Source of the DNA: Candidatus Poribacteria bacterium
Lineage (GTDB): Bacteria > Poribacteria > WGA-4E > JAJDTR01
Direction of reading: 5' to 3'
Length of the DNA: 64,000 bases
Assembly: GCA_022827055.1 (NCBI GenBank)
Contig: JAJDTR010000062.1
Coordinates: forward strand, 1 to 64,000
The stretch's first letter is position 1; every line of letters begins with the position of its first letter. Under the pieces are notes generated by a model. That model made no database searches. It saw nothing but the letters and a program-made list of their open reading frames with translations, and was not told the origin of the DNA. Of the stretch, positions 22,590 to 54,853 are shown piece after piece. Position numbers and translations under genes: made by a program.

Positions 22590-22931
22590 ATGGAATTATC
22601 TTTTGCCATAACCTTAATTGTGGAAGAACAGATTAATGGCTATTACATAGCCACTTGTGAAGAACTTCCAGAATTTCTTACTGGCGGTGAAACCTTCGAG
22701 GAAGTAAGGGAAAACGTGCTTGATGCGTTTATTTCCACTTTGGAAATATATCAGCATTCAAACCGAAAATTGCCAGAAGGCATTATTGTAAAAGGTATTG
22801 AATTGTCCAAACCAAGATTTGCAACAATAACGCCCAAGCGCACAGTTGAGAATGATTTGGATGATTTTTGGTTCAGAGCCAATCTGCCCAGTCCACCTAA
22901 TATTGATGTACCAATCCCTGTATATGCATGA
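22590..22931 (+). CDS. hicB: HicB-family antitoxin, copy 1
   Basis: 113 residues. The N-terminal partial RNase H-like fold of HicB is recognisable at residues 1-55 (LIVEEQINGYYIATCEELPEF and GGETFEEVRENVLDAFISTLEIY). The C-terminal 50 residues are unlike the usual DNA-binding domain. HicB neutralises the HicA mRNA interferase and normally represses its own operon. Its stop overlaps the hicA start as ATGA, the usual sign of coupled translation. The module is more AT-rich than the array around it, consistent with transfer. Confidence 0.85.
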   Translation: MELSFAITLIVEEQINGYYIATCEELPEFLTGGETFEEVRENVLDAFISTLEIYQHSNRKLPEGIIVKGIELSKPRFATITPKRTVENDLDDFWFRANLPSPPNIDVPIPVYA

Positions 22932-23155
22932 AATACCGAGAGGTAGTCAAGAGAATGAAAAGGAAGGGATATTCCTGCTATGAGATAAACCGTGGCAACA
23001 GGGGTTCTCATAGAAGTTGGTATAACCCTGAAACAGGGAAGTATTCTATGCTTCCGTATCACGGCAATAAGGACATAGACAAAGGGCTTCTTTGTAGTTT
23101 GATTAAAGCCAAGGGTGAAATATCTCTTGGCTTTTTTTATTCATTCAGAGGAAAA
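22928..23155 (+). CDS. hicA: HicA-family toxin, copy 1, without its own stop codon
   Basis: HicA is a double-stranded-RNA-binding-like mRNA interferase. Residues 1-62 fit the family: a helix MKYREVVKRMKRKGY, the catalytic histidine in RGSHRSWYNPETGK, and PYHGNKDIDKGLLCSLIKAKG. The reading frame does not stop. It passes through a terminator-like hairpin and enters propeller gene 19 in frame at 23156, giving a potential 397-residue fusion. Either the native 3' end was lost at the insertion point or a stop was mutated. Translation of gene 19 probably starts at its own ATG. Confidence 0.75.
23106..23138 (+). terminator. Terminator-like hairpin at the hicA/gene 19 joint
   Basis: The stem AAGCCAAG/CTTGGCTT with a 12-base loop is followed directly by a run of T. 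It lies inside the joined frame, 18 bases before the gene 19 start, so it would stop hicBA transcripts before gene 19. Confidence 0.65.
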
Positions 23156-24121
23156 ATGTCAATCAAAGTTGGACGGTGCTTGACGACGGTGATAGTCTTC
23201 TCCTTGTTAATCCAGATGCAATTTACAGTGAACGGTTACGCCGCCCGCGGCACCAAGATCGCGTTCACCTCTACGAGGCATAACGGGTTCAGTGAAATCT
23301 ACATTATGGACGGTGACGGAGGCAACCAGGTGAGACTAACGTATCACGCGGGGCGTGACGGAGGCGCGTCATGGTCGCCCGACGGCAGAAGGATCGCGTT
23401 TGTCTCCAACCGAGATCGCGGATATGACCGCATCTACGTCATGGATGCCGACGGACAGAATATGAAGAGACTAACAAAGGATTCGACCAATCGACATCCG
23501 GCGTGGTCGCCCGACGGAGGAAGGATTGCGTTCACTCGCAATACCCAGATTTGCGTCATGGACACCGACGGGAAAAACCTCGTACCGTTAACGCATATAG
23601 GATACAACAGTCAGCCAGCTTGGTCGCCCGATGGAACAAGAATCGCCTTCGTATCCCATCGAGACGGAGGCCCCGAAATCTACGTCATGGATGAAAATGG
23701 TGACAATCAGGAAAGACGAACCGGCAATAAGGCGGTCAAAAGCGCTCCCGCGTGGTCGCCCGACGGTCGATGGATCGCGTATTCCTCTCTTGATCTACAA
23801 AGGGTTTTTCAAATCTACGTCGTGAGATCCGAAGGGGTTCCTCTAAAAAAGAAGCTAACGCGCAAACCGCCGGATAAATTTCATCCCGTATGGTCGCCGG
23901 ACGGCGATACGATCGCATACACGTCAGCGGTCGCCTTCGGGAATACAAGGATTCACCTGATGAGTGACAAGGGAATTTTCCTCAAACAGTTCCGTGAGGT
24001 CGGCAATGGATCGGACTTGAGTCCCGATTGGGTTGACCCTGCCGCATGGTCGGTGCCGCCGGCCGAAAACGTTGTCACTAGCTGGGGAAAGATTAAAAAG
24101 CCAAGATCGGCTCTTCAATGA
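23156..24121 (+). CDS. PD40/TolB-like beta-propeller protein, array gene 19 (subfamily B)
   Basis: 321 residues, signal peptide MSIKVGRCLTTVIVFSLLIQ. The start is the ATG at 23156 with GAGG upstream and family alignment. The leader normally found before array genes is gone, replaced by hicA. All six turns read WSPDG, the best preserved set in the array. The last lines SVPPAENVVTSWGKIKKPRSALQ diverge slightly, and the final residue is Q instead of R. Confidence 0.88.
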   Translation: MSIKVGRCLTTVIVFSLLIQMQFTVNGYAARGTKIAFTSTRHNGFSEIYIMDGDGGNQVRLTYHAGRDGGASWSPDGRRIAFVSNRDRGYDRIYVMDADGQNMKRLTKDSTNRHPAWSPDGGRIAFTRNTQICVMDTDGKNLVPLTHIGYNSQPAWSPDGTRIAFVSHRDGGPEIYVMDENGDNQERRTGNKAVKSAPAWSPDGRWIAYSSLDLQRVFQIYVVRSEGVPLKKKLTRKPPDKFHPVWSPDGDTIAYTSAVAFGNTRIHLMSDKGIFLKQFREVGNGSDLSPDWVDPAAWSVPPAENVVTSWGKIKKPRSALQ

Positions 24122-44136: not shown

Positions 44137-44352
44137 TTAAGCGTCCATAAAATCTTCCCATTCTATTCCGAGTTGTTTCACTATCTTTTTTACAGTGTGA
44201 ACTGCAAACTCATTGGAATTATAGGATATGACTGTAGATTTATCCGGTAATGATGGGTTTCTCCATTTATAATGAGAACCACTATTGCGCTTTTCCAATT
44301 CTATGCAACCTAGAGCATTGAGTTTTTTCAAAATAATACGGCGTTTCGCTAT
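44137..44352 (-). CDS. hicA: HicA-family toxin, copy 2, without a standard start codon
   Basis: About 71 residues. The HicA signature is clear: KKLNALGCIELEKRNSGSHY with catalytic H, KWRNPSLPDK, and a C-terminal VKKIVKQLGIEWEDFMDA. Where copy 1 and copy 4 have ATGA overlapping the hicB stop, this locus has ATAG, so the expected start is ATA. The first usable codon is TTG at 44331, which would remove the first half of helix 1. Toxin output may be low or absent. Confidence 0.7.
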   Translation of the reverse strand: MAKRRIILKKLNALGCIELEKRNSGSHYKWRNPSLPDKSTVISYNSNEFAVHTVKKIVKQLGIEWEDFMDA

Positions 44353-44687
44353 GCTTGAAGATACACTTCTCTAGGCGGAGTATTCAGTTCATTTAAGTTA
44401 AGGGACACAAGAGAAGAGGTCTTCCGAGCACGAAATGTACTCCTGTTTTTACTGTACTGATGAAGTTTCTTCTCAGCATAAATTGACTCCGGTAATTCTT
44501 TCCCTAAGTCTTCATACAATTCTAAAACTGACACAAATGCATCAATTGTATTGTCTAATGCATCATCTATGGTTTTACCTTCCGTTATAAGTTCTGGAAG
44601 TTCCTTACAAGTAACAGTATAAACTTGCTCTGGCTGATATTCCAAAATCACAGTCAATACGAAGTGGACTGTAACTTGATTTTTCAC
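44349..44687 (-). CDS. hicB: HicB-family antitoxin, copy 2
   Basis: 112 residues starting at GTG, with AGGAGA 9 bases upstream. The HicB fold covers residues 8-60 (FVLTVILEYQPEQVYTVTCK, ELPELITEGKTIDDALDNTI, DAFVSVLELYEDLGK). The C-terminus is basic (KLHQYSKNRSTFRARKTSS), which could bind DNA. Organisation hicB then hicA, as in copies 1 and 4. The region is AT-rich. Confidence 0.85.
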   Translation of the reverse strand: MKNQVTVHFVLTVILEYQPEQVYTVTCKELPELITEGKTIDDALDNTIDAFVSVLELYEDLGKELPESIYAEKKLHQYSKNRSTFRARKTSSLVSLNLNELNTPPREVYLQA

Positions 44688-49608: not shown

Positions 49609-50781
49609 CTAGAACCGCTGCAGATCCCCGTCACGAACAACCAAGACGACTGGATCGTATTCGGCGTCGCCGACGGCGTCATATGAGAACGCCCCGAGTA
49701 CGGTCTCAAAATCGCTTGTCGCAGCCAACGCCTCCCGGATCGCTTCCGAATCGGTTGACCCCGCTTCGGAAATAGCATTCACCAGAAGCTGCACCGATGT
49801 GTACGCCAATGCGGTGTACACCGTCGGATGTTCGCCGTATCTCGCGGTATAGTTCCGTACAAACGCCTGGCTGGCGGGCGTCTCCGCCGTGCTCGTCCAT
49901 GCCGCGAACGTAATCGCCCCCTCCGCGGCGGCGCCTGCCTGCTGCACCTGGCCCAAACCCAACGCCGGTACGATGAAGGGTACATCGTCCGGAATCCCCA
50001 CTTCGCGCCCCTGTATGAGAACCGTTGGCTGGTCAAACGAATTTGCGGCGACAAGAACGGCGTCCGGTTCCAAATCCCGTATCCTGCTTAATTGGGTGCG
50101 GATATCCTCGGCGTGGGAGGGGAAGGTTTCCGTGGTCAAGACCTCGATGTCGAGTTCGGCGAGGATTTCGGAATACACGGCGGCGGCGCTGCGGGAAAAC
50201 ACATCGATGTCATCAGCCAGTATGGCGACGTTCTGATAGCCGAGTGTTGCGTTTGTAAGATGTAACCCGGGCGGAATCCGTTTCTCCACGGTCAAGTTCA
50301 CGCGGAAAACAAAGTCGCCAAGGGCGCTGAGTCCCTGCGCCGCGGATGACGGCGCAATTGCCACGATCCGATTTTCTTCCGCCAACGGGAATGCAATCTC
50401 GGTTAGGGTCGAGGCCGCGGGACCTAGCAGCGCGACCACGCCGTCCTCGTGGATCAGCTTGTTGTAGGCGGCAATCGCTCCCTCGGGGGTGCTCTTGTTG
50501 TCCTCGAGGATGAAGCGGATGCGCGGCGGTGCAAGTTGCGCGTTGTTAATCTCGTCGCGCGCCATATAAAAACCGTTGATGTACCTGACGATGTTCGGGT
50601 CGTCGGGACCGTCGACGTAGGCGCCGGATTGCGGCATCACCAAGCCGATGAGGAGCTCATCCGGAAGCGGCGAAGGAGGCTCGCCCTCGGAAAGTATGGA
50701 AACCAATTCGTCGCAGCCGTAAAGCCCGGAGATGAGCGCGGCACCGACAATCAATAGACAGATTTTTTGGATAGGATTCAC
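49609..50781 (-). CDS. Branched-chain-amino-acid-type ABC substrate-binding lipoprotein, copy 1
   Basis: 390 residues, GTG start with AAGGAGG 9 bases upstream. Lipoprotein signal with lipobox L-Y-G-C (Cys 23). Type I periplasmic binding fold (LivJ/Peripla_BP_6): IGLVMPQSGAYVDGPDDP, FYMARDEINNAQLAPPRIRF, LIHEDGVVALLGPAASTLTE, and a C-terminal ATSDFETVLGAFSYDAVGD. No permease or ATPase gene lies nearby, so it either serves a distant transporter or acts as a sensor. Copy 2 at 52201 is nearly identical. Confidence 0.9.
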   Translation of the reverse strand: MNPIQKICLLIVGAALISGLYGCDELVSILSEGEPPSPLPDELLIGLVMPQSGAYVDGPDDPNIVRYINGFYMARDEINNAQLAPPRIRFILEDNKSTPEGAIAAYNKLIHEDGVVALLGPAASTLTEIAFPLAEENRIVAIAPSSAAQGLSALGDFVFRVNLTVEKRIPPGLHLTNATLGYQNVAILADDIDVFSRSAAAVYSEILAELDIEVLTTETFPSHAEDIRTQLSRIRDLEPDAVLVAANSFDQPTVLIQGREVGIPDDVPFIVPALGLGQVQQAGAAAEGAITFAAWTSTAETPASQAFVRNYTARYGEHPTVYTALAYTSVQLLVNAISEAGSTDSEAIREALAATSDFETVLGAFSYDAVGDAEYDPVVLVVRDGDLQRF

Positions 50782-51036
50782 TAGGTTAGACCTCCTTAAT
50801 TCGTTTAAGTTGGTTGTATGTATTCCTCGCTGCGGAAATGGGTTAGTTACTCGCCTTGAACGCGGGTATTGTATCCGACTCGGAGGCGTTATTCAAGCCC
50901 GATGTAATTCCCGCTGAACTACATCGTGCGGGACGTCCGCTGCCTTCCCGGTGTTGAATGGGGGTAATTGCCATTTCTGATCGGAGTTCGAGCCCACTTC
51001 GCATTCCATGTTAGATGCGGTATAATTTAGGCAGTT
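50782..51036. other. Divergent spacer, duplicated at 53374-53700
   Basis: The sequence (GTATTGTATCCGACTCGG, ATTCAAGCCCG, TAATTCCCGCTGAAC) matches the spacer of the second binding-protein copy. The -10 box TATAAT at 51021-51026 belonged to the DUF433 gene. No intact gene. Confidence 0.55.
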
Positions 51037-51239
51037 CATCAAGACATTTGCAATGGCCGGCCTGTTATTGCCGTTCTCGGATCCGCGTTCAAACGATCAT
51101 GGAGTTATTGGGGGCGTGCGATTCCATAGACGAGGTGCTTGAAGCCTATCTTTCTCTCAAGCGGGAGGATATATATGCCCGCATCCGATTCGCCGCCAAG
51201 TTAATGGCGAATCATTATCAAGTCGAAACATTTGTATGA
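51037..51239 (+). pseudogene. DUF433 gene, decayed copy
   Basis: Compared with the intact copy at 53701, the ribosome site, start codon and first seven codons were deleted between two TCATC repeats, and one base is missing near 51074, shifting the frame. The C-terminal half is clean (SIDEVLEAYLSLKREDIYAR, IRFAAKLMANHYQ). An open frame from 51015 starts inside the promoter and is not the gene. Confidence 0.75.
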
Positions 51240-51316
51240 TTTGACGAGTCCGATCAATCTCGAATCTCTTCTTTGGTGCCTTGACAATTCCATTCCCCGT
51301 CATGGTGTAATTCCCG

Positions 51317-51346
51317 TTGCGTATTGTCCCAAAATCCTGTTATACT
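51317..51346 (+). promoter_or_regulatory. Promoter of hicBA copy 4
   Basis: TTGCGT, 18 bases, TATACT, 55 bases before the hicB start codon. Confidence 0.5.
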
Positions 51347-51400
51347 GTGCATAATGATTGAGTTGACGAATCCCCTATCAACTGAGAGTGCGGTGTCCCC

Positions 51401-51646
51401 ATGAGTTCTCAAAATGGATACAAACAGTGTTATACCGCCTATATTGCACAAGAGGATGGTTGGTGGATCGGATGGATTCAAGGGGTTCGCGGTGTAAATT
51501 GCCAGGAGAGAACCAGAGAGGAACTTCTTGACTCCTTGAGAGTTACGCTTCCAGAGATTTTAGAGTATGATAAGAAAGGATACAATCAGATCGGTTGTAT
51601 CCGTACTCCCGAGCCTCATTTTGAGCCGGTAACGATTCGGCTATGA
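51401..51646 (+). CDS. hicB: HicB-family antitoxin, copy 4
   Basis: 81 residues, compact single-domain HicB: YTAYIAQEDGWWIGWIQGVR, GVNCQERTREELLDSLRVTL, PEILEYDKKG. There is no added DNA-binding domain. No good ribosome site is visible. Its stop overlaps the hicA start as ATGA. The antitoxin is intact while its toxin carries two stops. Confidence 0.82.
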   Translation: MSSQNGYKQCYTAYIAQEDGWWIGWIQGVRGVNCQERTREELLDSLRVTLPEILEYDKKGYNQIGCIRTPEPHFEPVTIRL

Positions 51647-51828
51647 AACGGCGGAATCTTGAACAGCATCTCAGAAAACACGGATGTGTTCTGGAAAGAG
51701 AAAGTTAACATGCCATTTGGAAGAATCCGACATTTAATGTCATCAGTGCAATGCCACGACACGCCGAAATACCTAGGTGAACAGTCAGGGCGATCTGCCG
51801 TGATTTAAGAATTCCCAGTCCCTTCTAA
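51643..51828 (+). pseudogene. hicA: HicA toxin, copy 4, broken by two in-frame stops
   Basis: In one frame: MKRRNLEQHLRKHGCVLERE-S, TAA (51706), HAIWKNPTFNVISAMPRHAE-I-P-R, TGA (51778), TVRAICRDLRIPSPF, TAA. This is a full HicA with the catalytic histidine in H-A-I-W, interrupted only by the two stops. Toxin activity must be lost, leaving an orphan antitoxin. Confidence 0.85.
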
Positions 51829-52200
51829 AGCCCATCATGCCACTGATATTTCCTTAGGTTAACAAGTGAATAAGACAGTGCCGATTGTCGCGTGGGATTC
51901 ACCATCGGAAATAGCCATGGGATTGCCATCGGGATTTGCTATGGAATCTCCATCAATCAGGTGTTTCTATCCAGTCGCTTGATTCCAGCTTACAACCGCT
52001 AAAAGCTGGTGCGCGAGGGATTTCTATGGGAGCTCTATTGGAGTTCTAGCGCCTTCCCTATCCGGTCAGTTGCTCATTCGCTATTCACTCAGTTGCCGGA
52101 TCTCTATCGATCAAGTGAGTGAATAACGAACGCGATAGTCCATCCTACTCCTTATCCACTCGCTTGATTGCACCCTACAGTCCGTAATCGCGCCCACGAA
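51829..52200. repeat. Repeat spacer inside the segmental duplication
   Basis: It contains CTATCG...CTTGATC type units (51955-51985, 52040-52170), one inverted as GATCAAGTGAGTGAATAACG. No gene seen. The hairpin family is absent here. Confidence 0.5.
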
Positions 52201-53373
52201 CTAGAACGGCTGGAATGCACCGTCTCGCACAACCAAGATGATGGAATCGTAATCGGCGTCGCCGACGGCGTCGAATGAAAACCCCCCGAGAACGGTCTCA
52301 AAATCGCTTGTGGCAGCCAACGCCTCCCGAATCGCATCCGAATCGGTTGAACCCGCCGTTGAGATCGCGTTCACCAAAAGCTGTACGGATGTGTATGCCA
52401 GCGCGCTGAAGACCGACGGCTCCAAATCGTATGCGTCGATGAAGTCCCGGACGAACGCCTGATTGCCGGGCGTGTCCGCCGCGCTCGTCCACGCCGTAAT
52501 CGAAATCGCCCCCTCCGCCGCCGCGCCCGCATGCTGCACCTCGCCCACGCTCATCAGCGGCACGATGAAGGGCACATCGTCCGGAATCCCCACTTCGCGT
52601 CCCTGAACGAGGATTGCTGGAGTGTCAAACGAATTCGCCGCGACAAGAACGGCGCCCGGCTGCAGATCCCGAATCCGCGTCAATTGGGGGCGGAGATCCG
52701 CATCGAGCGTGGAGAAGGTTTCCGTCGTCAAGAGCTTGACATCAATCGATTCGAGGGTTTCCGCGTACACCTCGTTAGCGCTGCGGGAGAATGCATCAAG
52801 GGTGTCGACTATAATTGCCACGCTTTGATACCCCAGCTTTTCCTGCGTGACCCGCACGCCGTGCGGAATTAGTTTGTCCACGGTCAGGTTGACGCGAAAT
52901 ACAAAATCCCCGAGCGCGCTCAGGCCGTGCGACGCGGATGTCGGCGCAATCGCCACGATCCGGTTTTCTTCCGCCACCGGGAAGGCTGCCCCGGTTAGAG
53001 TCGATGTCGCGGGACCTAGCAGCGCGACCACCCCGTCCTCGTGGATCAGTTTGTTGTAGGCGGCTATCGCTCCCTCCGCGGTGCTCTTGTTGTCCTCTAG
53101 GATAAAGCGGATTCGCGGCGGCGCGAGTTGTGCGTTGTTAATTTCGTCGCGCGCCAAATAGAAGCCATTCAGATACCTGACGATGTCCGGGTCGTCCGGT
53201 CCATCAACGAAAGCGCCGGACTGTGGCATCACCAGACCGATAAGGAGTTCATCCGGAAGCGGCGACGGCGGCTCGCTCTCGGAGAGGATGGAAACCAATT
53301 CATCGCAGCCGTAAAGCCCGAAGACGAGTACGGCGCCGACGGCCAATAGACAGAGTTTTTGGATAGTATTCAC
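52201..53373 (-). CDS. Branched-chain-amino-acid-type ABC substrate-binding lipoprotein, copy 2
   Basis: 390 residues from a GTG at 53373 (V-N-T-I-Q-K) with GGGAGG 9 bases upstream; the frame is open for 96 more codons upstream, but that part is spacer also found before copy 1. Lipobox L-Y-G-C. Same length as copy 1; most changes cluster in one stretch around VRVTQEKLGYQSVAIIVDTL and the C-terminal lobe, which may alter ligand choice. No transporter partners nearby. Confidence 0.9.
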   Translation of the reverse strand: MNTIQKLCLLAVGAVLVFGLYGCDELVSILSESEPPSPLPDELLIGLVMPQSGAFVDGPDDPDIVRYLNGFYLARDEINNAQLAPPRIRFILEDNKSTAEGAIAAYNKLIHEDGVVALLGPATSTLTGAAFPVAEENRIVAIAPTSASHGLSALGDFVFRVNLTVDKLIPHGVRVTQEKLGYQSVAIIVDTLDAFSRSANEVYAETLESIDVKLLTTETFSTLDADLRPQLTRIRDLQPGAVLVAANSFDTPAILVQGREVGIPDDVPFIVPLMSVGEVQHAGAAAEGAISITAWTSAADTPGNQAFVRDFIDAYDLEPSVFSALAYTSVQLLVNAISTAGSTDSDAIREALAATSDFETVLGGFSFDAVGDADYDSIILVVRDGAFQPF

Positions 53374-53700
53374 TAGGTTAGACCTCCCTGATTTAGTGCA
53401 GTGCGTTCTATGTATTCCTTGTTGTGGGGATGGACGACCTGCTCGCCCTCGAACGCCCGTATTGTATCCGACTCGGGGTCGTAATTCAAGCCCGTTGTAA
53501 CTCCCGCTGAACGACATCGCGGTTTGACATATGATGCTGTTGGCGGATATGATCGATCGAGTGAATAGTGAGTTTGATAAAGGCAGTTGCCGTTTCTGAT
53601 TGGAGTTCGAGCACACTACGCTTTCCATGTGAGATATGGTATAATTTAGGCAGGTCATCAAGAAAACGGAAAATTATCCTAGGGGCATCGGAGCAACGTT
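53374..53700. promoter_or_regulatory. Divergent control region of SBP copy 2 and DUF433
   Basis: The DUF433 gene has an extended -10 box TGGTATAAT (TATAAT at 53640-53645) with no good -35. The stretch repeats the one before the first SBP. A reversed CTATCG...CTTGATC remnant (GATCGATCGAGTGAATAG) lies at 53551-53570. Confidence 0.5.
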
Positions 53701-53925
53701 ATGGCTAAGCGGATAGATATTCATCCTGACATTTGCAACGGGCGGCCTGTTATTGCCGGGACTCGCATTCTCGTTCAATCTATCATGGAATTTCTGGGCG
53801 CGGGAGATTCCATAGACGAGGTGCTTGAAGCATATCCTTCCCTCGAAAGAGAGGATGTTTATGCCTGTATCCAATTCGCCGCCAAGTTAATGGCGAATCA
53901 TTACCAAATAAAAAAAATTGCATGA
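53701..53925 (+). CDS. DUF433-family protein, likely antitoxin
   Basis: 74 residues: MAKRIDIHPDICNGRPVIAG, TRILVQSIMEFLGAGDSIDE, VLEAYPSLEREDVYACIQFA. This is the DUF433 helix-turn-helix family, commonly paired with DUF5615 PIN-like toxins. Its stop overlaps ATG of a DUF5615 start at 53922 (ATGA), but that toxin is cut off after about 18 residues. Confidence 0.85.
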   Translation: MAKRIDIHPDICNGRPVIAGTRILVQSIMEFLGAGDSIDEVLEAYPSLEREDVYACIQFAAKLMANHYQIKKIA

Positions 53926-53993
53926 ATGGCTTTTTGTTTGATGAAAACCTACCCTTGAACATCGGATTGAAACCAGGCGCGACGGAGGTATAG
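53922..53993 (+). pseudogene. DUF5615 PIN-like toxin, N-terminal remnant
   Basis: The 23 residues MNGFLFDENLPLNIGLKPGA-T-E-V start with the DUF5615 hallmark F-L-F-D-E-N-L-P, whose acidic residues form part of the PIN-like active site. The rest is gone; the stop is three bases before the HicB-HicA fusion start and the remnant contains GGAGG, the ribosome site of that gene. A deletion therefore joined two toxin-antitoxin modules. Confidence 0.7.
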
Positions 53994-53995
53994 CA

Positions 53996-54517
53996 ATGGA
54001 TAGCAACCTAAGCGTGAATTTGGCAGAGCAACCGGAGGGCGGTTATACGCTAACCAGCAACGACCTGCCCGAACTCGTGACCGAAGGGGATTCGGTAGAG
54101 GAGGCGATGGAGAATCTGAAGGATGCGTACGCCGCGGCGCTTGAACTGTATGAGGATTTGGGGCGTCCCGCACACGCTGGCGGGGAGAAGCCCCCCGAGG
54201 GAGGCCCACGGTTTGCGGCATTTCCGCTCGAATCGCGGATTGATTCCGATGCAGATGTGCCCCCGGATAACGGTCAGCTTCGGTTTGAGGCAACGCTCTG
54301 CGAGTATGAATTGAGGCTGCCTGCACGAAAGCTGAGGGCGCTGGGGTGTGAGGAACAATTGAGGCGGGAGCGTGTATCGCACCGGATATGGCGAAACCCC
54401 CTTACCGGGGGTTCGGCGGTCGTGCCGGATTACGGGAGCCGTGATTTGAGGGTCGGGACGATTCGGGCGGTGCTGCGGAATCTGGGGGTTGGATGGGAGG
54501 AGTTTTTGAGGGGATGA
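53996..54517 (+). CDS. HicB-HicA single-chain fusion, copy 3
   Basis: 173 residues. Residues 1-60 are a HicB fold (VNLAEQPEGGYTLTSNDLPE, LVTEGDSVEEAMENLKDAYA, AALELYEDLG). Residues 61-103 are a linker that replaces the HicB C-terminus. Residues 104-173 are HicA-like: LPARKLRALGCEEQLRRERV, SHRIWRNPLTGGSAVVPDYG, VGTIRAVLRNLGVGWEEFLR. The catalytic histidine is kept (V-S-H-R), although the usual G before S-H is V. The domain order is the same as gene order hicB-hicA in copies 1, 2 and 4, so loss of the hicB stop is a simple origin. Activity unknown. Confidence 0.8.
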   Translation: MDSNLSVNLAEQPEGGYTLTSNDLPELVTEGDSVEEAMENLKDAYAAALELYEDLGRPAHAGGEKPPEGGPRFAAFPLESRIDSDADVPPDNGQLRFEATLCEYELRLPARKLRALGCEEQLRRERVSHRIWRNPLTGGSAVVPDYGSRDLRVGTIRAVLRNLGVGWEEFLRG

Positions 54518-54853
54518 TATGGTATAAAGGGGGCACTCGTTCAAAAAGGAGAAGGATTTTCATGGCGACAGAGAAGGAGAAGATTGACAAGGCGCCCGCT
54601 ATCGACTCAACGGCGGGCCGAACAGCGGGAGCATACGGCGAGTGGGATGAAACTTAAGCGTTGCTTGATGATCCTGTCTTTATGAAAAGCCATGCGAGGG
54701 CGGAGAAGGACAGGGCAGATGGAATTTCAAGGAAGTTTGCGGAAATCAGAAGAATTTAGTTGCTTATTAGATGAATCTCAGACACACCAGAGAATGTAGC
54801 GGAGTCGTTGTTTGGGATTATGACAACGGGAAACCTATCACGAAAAAATGGGC
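54518..54853. other. Spacer with a broken small gene
   Basis: Apart from the pseudogene at 54562-54759 nothing is seen. TGATATGGTATAAAG at 54516-54530 resembles an extended -10 box for it. Confidence 0.4.
54562..54759 (+). pseudogene. Small acidic protein, possibly antitoxin, with in-frame TAA
   Basis: AAGGAGAAGG precedes the ATG. The frame reads MATEKEKIDKAPAIDSTAGR, TAGAYGEWDET, TAA (54655), then ALLDDPVFMKSHARAEKDRA, DGISRKFAEIRRI, TAG. Both halves look like one 65-residue helical protein; the L-L-D-D-P-x-F-M end resembles antitoxins of the Phd type, but I cannot assign it firmly. Confidence 0.5.

Follow-up and report, generated by a model that had tools for sequence, protein, structure and literature searches.

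Gerdes (2024, mBio, PMC10865869) described fourteen contexts of HicA, among which Class 12 comprises monocistronic genes encoding a small HicB fused to HicA. The class was explained as a probable fusion of Class 2 operons, and CapRel-like phage sensing was suggested for it (PMC10865869). Synechocystis Slr1999, which combines a HicB and a HicA domain in a single chain, had been reported in 2016 (PMC4963859). The architecture described below, which a preliminary description of this DNA implied to be new, is thus already known as Class 12, with Slr1999 as an earlier case. In the literature that we searched, we found no experimental work on Class 12 fusions, a class catalogued by bioinformatics only, and no earlier report of such a fusion from Poribacteria; the Class 12 member list in the Gerdes supplement lay outside this search.

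We analysed a 64,000-nt stretch of DNA (the window) from the draft genome of a sponge-associated Candidatus Poribacteria bacterium. In it, an open reading frame (ORF) at 53996–54517 (+) encodes a protein of 173 aa in one frame with no internal stop. Another species of this genus, Ca. Poribacteria JAPPIK01, carries a full-length syntenic orthologue (JAPPIK010000020.1, bin RHO2_bin_20) that is 86–87% identical, contains no stop or indel and keeps all HicA landmarks. In both species, two divergent periplasmic-binding-protein genes lie upstream and a small ORF downstream. A Shine–Dalgarno motif, GGAGG (53984–53988, +), identified from sequence and alignment, precedes the ATG by 7 nt and is common to both species despite differing DNA farther upstream; a strong ribosome site was found 5′ of the fused start only. 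The homologue search proposed in the preliminary description returned a fused orthologue, and the stop or frameshift between the halves that it had set as a refuting test was seen in neither gene. An assembly or sequencing error joining two genes might be suspected, as the window comes from a 171-contig draft genome, the orthologue record is itself a metagenome assembly and the unfused relatives differ by one frame. However, the same frame is open in both species despite 37 synonymous and 26 non-synonymous differences between the two fused genes, and the orthologue refutes such an error in practice, leaving it a negligible probability. The ORF is a real, conserved single-chain HicB–HicA fusion. 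Canonical type II toxin–antitoxin systems consist of two separate genes; here, a single uninterrupted frame encodes HicB followed by HicA, as in Class 12, in two species.

The HicB core (residues 1–57; 53996–54166, +) has a β-β-β-α topology supported by structure matches, AlphaFold and alignment, and keeps 28 of 34 family-conserved positions. Residues 7–53 match the E. coli HicB chains 6hpb and 6u0i at 5e-7, while Pfam HicB-like models matched the N-terminal half weakly (0.009), under the cut-off. In alignments, the long HicBs of related genomes mostly run beyond the core through WFQTMTP-like and LWFQAVLPGSE-like segments, ending where HicA begins. Both segments have counterparts in the fusion. 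Residues 72–80 (RFAAFPLES; 54209–54235, +), the fourth strand region, are homologous to WFQTMTP/WLETVV of unfused HicBs, and residues 95–104 (LRFEATLCEY; 54278–54307, +), the C-terminal extension, to the LWFQAVLPGSE that ends unfused long HicBs. An AlphaFold run that included these tails predicted strands at 72–76 and 96–101 at low confidence. What had been described as a 40-residue linker is therefore mostly HicB C-terminal tail. As read from the alignment, the true inter-domain linker is a few residues, and HicA begins nearly directly after the HicB tail; the opening HicA residues (MKYREV in relatives) are rewritten in the fusion. A Pfam search for DNA-binding domains (HTH, RHH and Phd) gave no match at E values up to 1, or up to 10 for the orthologue. 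With ~106 aa and no such domain, the HicB part is small in the sense of Class 12, and slightly longer than the 63–103 codons of Class 2 HicBs (PMC10865869).

The C-terminal half is a HicA double-stranded RNA-binding domain (dsRBD)-like RNase domain of α-β-β-β-α topology (residues 110–173; 54323–54514, +), recognized by Pfam, AlphaFold and Foldseek. Residues 111–165 match Pfam HicA_toxin (PF07927) at E = 2.1e-9, and the half matches B. pseudomallei HicA (6g26_E) with a Foldseek probability of 0.98. Together with the uninterrupted frame and the HicB structure matches, the Pfam match bears out the earlier proposal that antitoxin and toxin folds lie in one 173-residue protein. The catalytic histidine, to which a role in HicA has been assigned (PMC11594946), is retained as had been stated: His129 (codon 54380–54382, +), conserved in 18 of 18 unfused relatives, is present with Ser128, and the HicA half also keeps Trp132 and most family-invariant positions. 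The residue before Ser-His in the G-S-H motif (codon 54374–54376, +) is Val127 in the window protein and Gly in the orthologue and in all 18 unfused HicAs, and the conserved Lys131 is replaced by Ile in both fusions. Given Val127 adjoining the active site, the toxin half of the window protein may be a weakened RNase.

Comparison of the two fused genes by a Nei–Gojobori count gave a dS of 0.36, a dN of 0.07 and a dN/dS of 0.20. The corresponding ratios were 0.21 and 0.11 for the flanking periplasmic-binding-protein genes and 0.16 for an unfused hicB compared between the two genomes. As its ratio is in the range of these genes, the fused form evolves as an ordinary functional gene; judged from the substitution counts, it is under purifying selection. 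By segment, dN/dS was 0.12 for the HicB core, 0.34 for residues 59–98, 0.04 for residues 91–108 and 0.23 for HicA, values that rest on small counts from two sequences.

The locus could also be a recent, functionless fusion in decay, like the broken hicBA copies of the same genome: in contig C137 (locus L002), a TAG replaces the Trp codon of the hicA motif GSHRKW, and contig C150 (locus L014) carries a hicBA locus with frameshifts. Truncation of the small downstream ORF in the window points the same way. By contrast, both species carry the fusion unbroken across the divergence given above, with a low dN/dS and no indels, which largely refutes decay and makes it very improbable. A detoxified, repurposed protein is a further alternative, in which HicA would be permanently neutralised and the protein would serve as a regulator that binds RNA or protein, or its HicB half as a trans antitoxin against the other HicAs of the genome. 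The greater constraint on the HicB core, the Val in place of an otherwise invariant Gly, the Ile at position 131 of both fusions and the several other hicBA loci of the genome are all in its favour. Yet HicA is also under purifying selection and keeps H129, S128, W132 and most family-invariant positions, and the orthologue retains Gly127, and we regard repurposing as unlikely, if worth bearing in mind.

Internal initiation might yield a separate HicA besides the fusion and thereby preserve an ordinary two-protein system. Potential in-frame starts are a GTG at residue 88 in both species and a TTG at residue 106 in the window only, but a clear ribosome-binding site is lacking at both, and the orthologue has CTG as codon 106. 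Translation from the ATGA remaining at 54306–54309 would be out of frame and stop after two codons, and production of two proteins appears extremely improbable. This ATGA looks like a relic of a gene overlap but is one base out of register, and we make no claim for it.

When a profile of the fusion was compared with 85 genomes of the Poribacteria phylum, full-length unbroken matches were obtained in these two genomes only; all other matches were to stand-alone hicB or hicA genes or to loci carrying the two side by side. A scan of genome contigs returned only the JAPPIK01 orthologue and one distant HicB. Among phages, plasmids and viral contigs, we found no fused form and no sign of one borne by a phage or plasmid. 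The unfused hicBA loci examined have the order hicB–hicA, mostly with a 4-nt GTGA or ATGA overlap and hicA in another frame, and the fusion matches this order, in agreement with the ancestral operon order proposed earlier. Because the family elsewhere in the phylum is a two-gene hicBA operon, the fusion is derived, at the level of the genus; because the overlapping genes are in different frames, joining them took one or more indels close to the overlap. Overall, the shift must have moved hicA from offset 2 to the frame of hicB, and the junction DNA is too diverged for the exact event to be reconstructed. Both halves are closest to two-gene loci of sister families (49–63% identity for HicB and 38–60% for HicA, over all loci compared); with the unfused Class 2 relatives in Poribacteria, the halves share 38–65% identity.

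The window genome contains seven further hicB–hicA loci, some of them broken. An unfused hicBA at 44137–44687 (−) has no ATG, GTG or TTG at the expected hicA start, and its overlap is ATAG, not ATGA. At 22590–22931 (+), a normal hicB overlaps a 397-aa ORF (22928–24121) that starts as HicA and then, without a change of frame, encodes a signal-peptide-like stretch and a β-propeller of the PD40/TolB type; in JAPPIK01, the counterpart hicA ends normally at 71 aa. Directly upstream of the fusion, 53701–53993 (+) holds a DUF433 antitoxin-like gene and, via a 4-nt ATGA overlap, a 23-aa stub (MNGFLFDENLP...) ending 2 nt 5′ of the fusion ATG. By eye, the stub resembles the start of a DUF5615-type toxin, with no match in Pfam; gene and stub are absent at this site in JAPPIK01. 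Within 49609–53925, a pair of genes, for a periplasmic binding protein and a DUF433 protein, is duplicated in tandem, with the copies ~2.6 kb apart and 78–88% alike. Downstream, the small ORF at 54562–54759 (+) meets a TAA after 31 aa in the window and encodes 67 aa in JAPPIK01, where a second copy lies beside a remnant of the fusion 3′ end. On inspection by eye, its relatives at other sites resemble small proteins of the antitoxin type; no family was matched. We considered this ORF (54562–54657 in its truncated form) as a third gene of the module and rejected it, as it is cut short in the window, Pfam returned nothing significant for the full-length version and the locus of one relative elsewhere (L051) has no hicBA in its ORF list.

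Two AlphaFold runs predicted the HicB β-β-β-α (residues 7–55) and HicA α-β-β-β-α (residues 110–172) units with fair confidence, and Foldseek matched each half separately to HicB and HicA structures. HicB antitoxins have a partial RNase H fold (β-β-β-α-β); of this, the first three strands and the helix were predicted confidently here and the fourth strand (72–76) at low pLDDT. AlphaFold did not fix the relative placement of the domains (pTM 0.42–0.44), and in the second model the pLDDT of residues 51–106 was below 50. The catalytic His of HicA is buried by HicB in solved complexes of the two (PMC11594946). On account of this masking and of the conserved HicB core, an intramolecular contact of HicB over His129 is the most likely arrangement. 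We favour, at a probability of about 0.6, a Class 12-type fusion of a Class 2-like operon whose HicB half probably masks His129 in cis. Joining at the overlap merged the two cistrons of the former hicB–hicA operon; HicB, still carrying its native C-terminal tail, would probably fold back onto the HicA half, and the protein would be made as an inactive RNase until triggered. To become active, the protein would need its HicB half loosened: the middle region might be cleaved or unfold or, by analogy with CapRel, a ligand or phage protein might bind. The preliminary description, right in its essentials, went too far in calling regulation by proteolysis impossible, as HicA could still be freed by a protease that cleaves within the middle region modelled at low confidence or unfolds HicB. 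The window genome also encodes several separate HicB proteins, which could act in trans. Self-inhibition is plausible, and we infer the intramolecular masking, the RNase activity, the trigger and any defence role. A PADLOC search for defence systems left the fusion unmatched. It is distinctly doubtful, if conceivable, that the fusion is a genus-specific infection sensor of sponge Poribacteria, whose trigger would be set by the extended HicB tail and not by degradation of a free-standing antitoxin, and in which Gly127 and Val127 would tune the strength of the toxin from one species to the other.

Like Class 12, the locus is one gene with HicB N-terminal and HicA C-terminal, without a recognisable DNA-binding domain and resembling Class 2 hicBA operons. 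Unlike the modelled Class 12 example, with HicA at residues 74–127, the Poribacteria fusion has a longer HicB tail with a second conserved segment, and HicA from ~108. Slr1999 likewise combines HicB and HicA in one protein and is considered an auto-regulated product of a former bicistronic operon. Likened here by description and not by sequence, it was reported without a fused homologue, whereas the Poribacteria orthologue pair shows selection on the fused form and offers a clean case of a Class 12-type fusion kept by it. With the Class 2 hicBA operons of Poribacteria, the fusion shares gene order, HicB tail and HicA motifs; those operons differ in having two cistrons in different frames, mostly with a 4-nt overlap, so that the two-gene state preceding the fusion is visible in sister genera. 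CapRel-SJ46 and EzeT, as cited in PMC10865869, also hold toxin and antitoxin in one chain, with the antitoxin part inhibiting in cis; as presented there, their toxin folds are unrelated and their trigger or cis-inhibition was shown experimentally, whereas the fusion is known from its sequence. The natural Gly/Val variants before the catalytic Ser-His provide material on how a toxin unable to leave its antitoxin is held and released. Overall, the Poribacteria fusion is a well-supported new example of Class 12 in which the HicB tail is longer.
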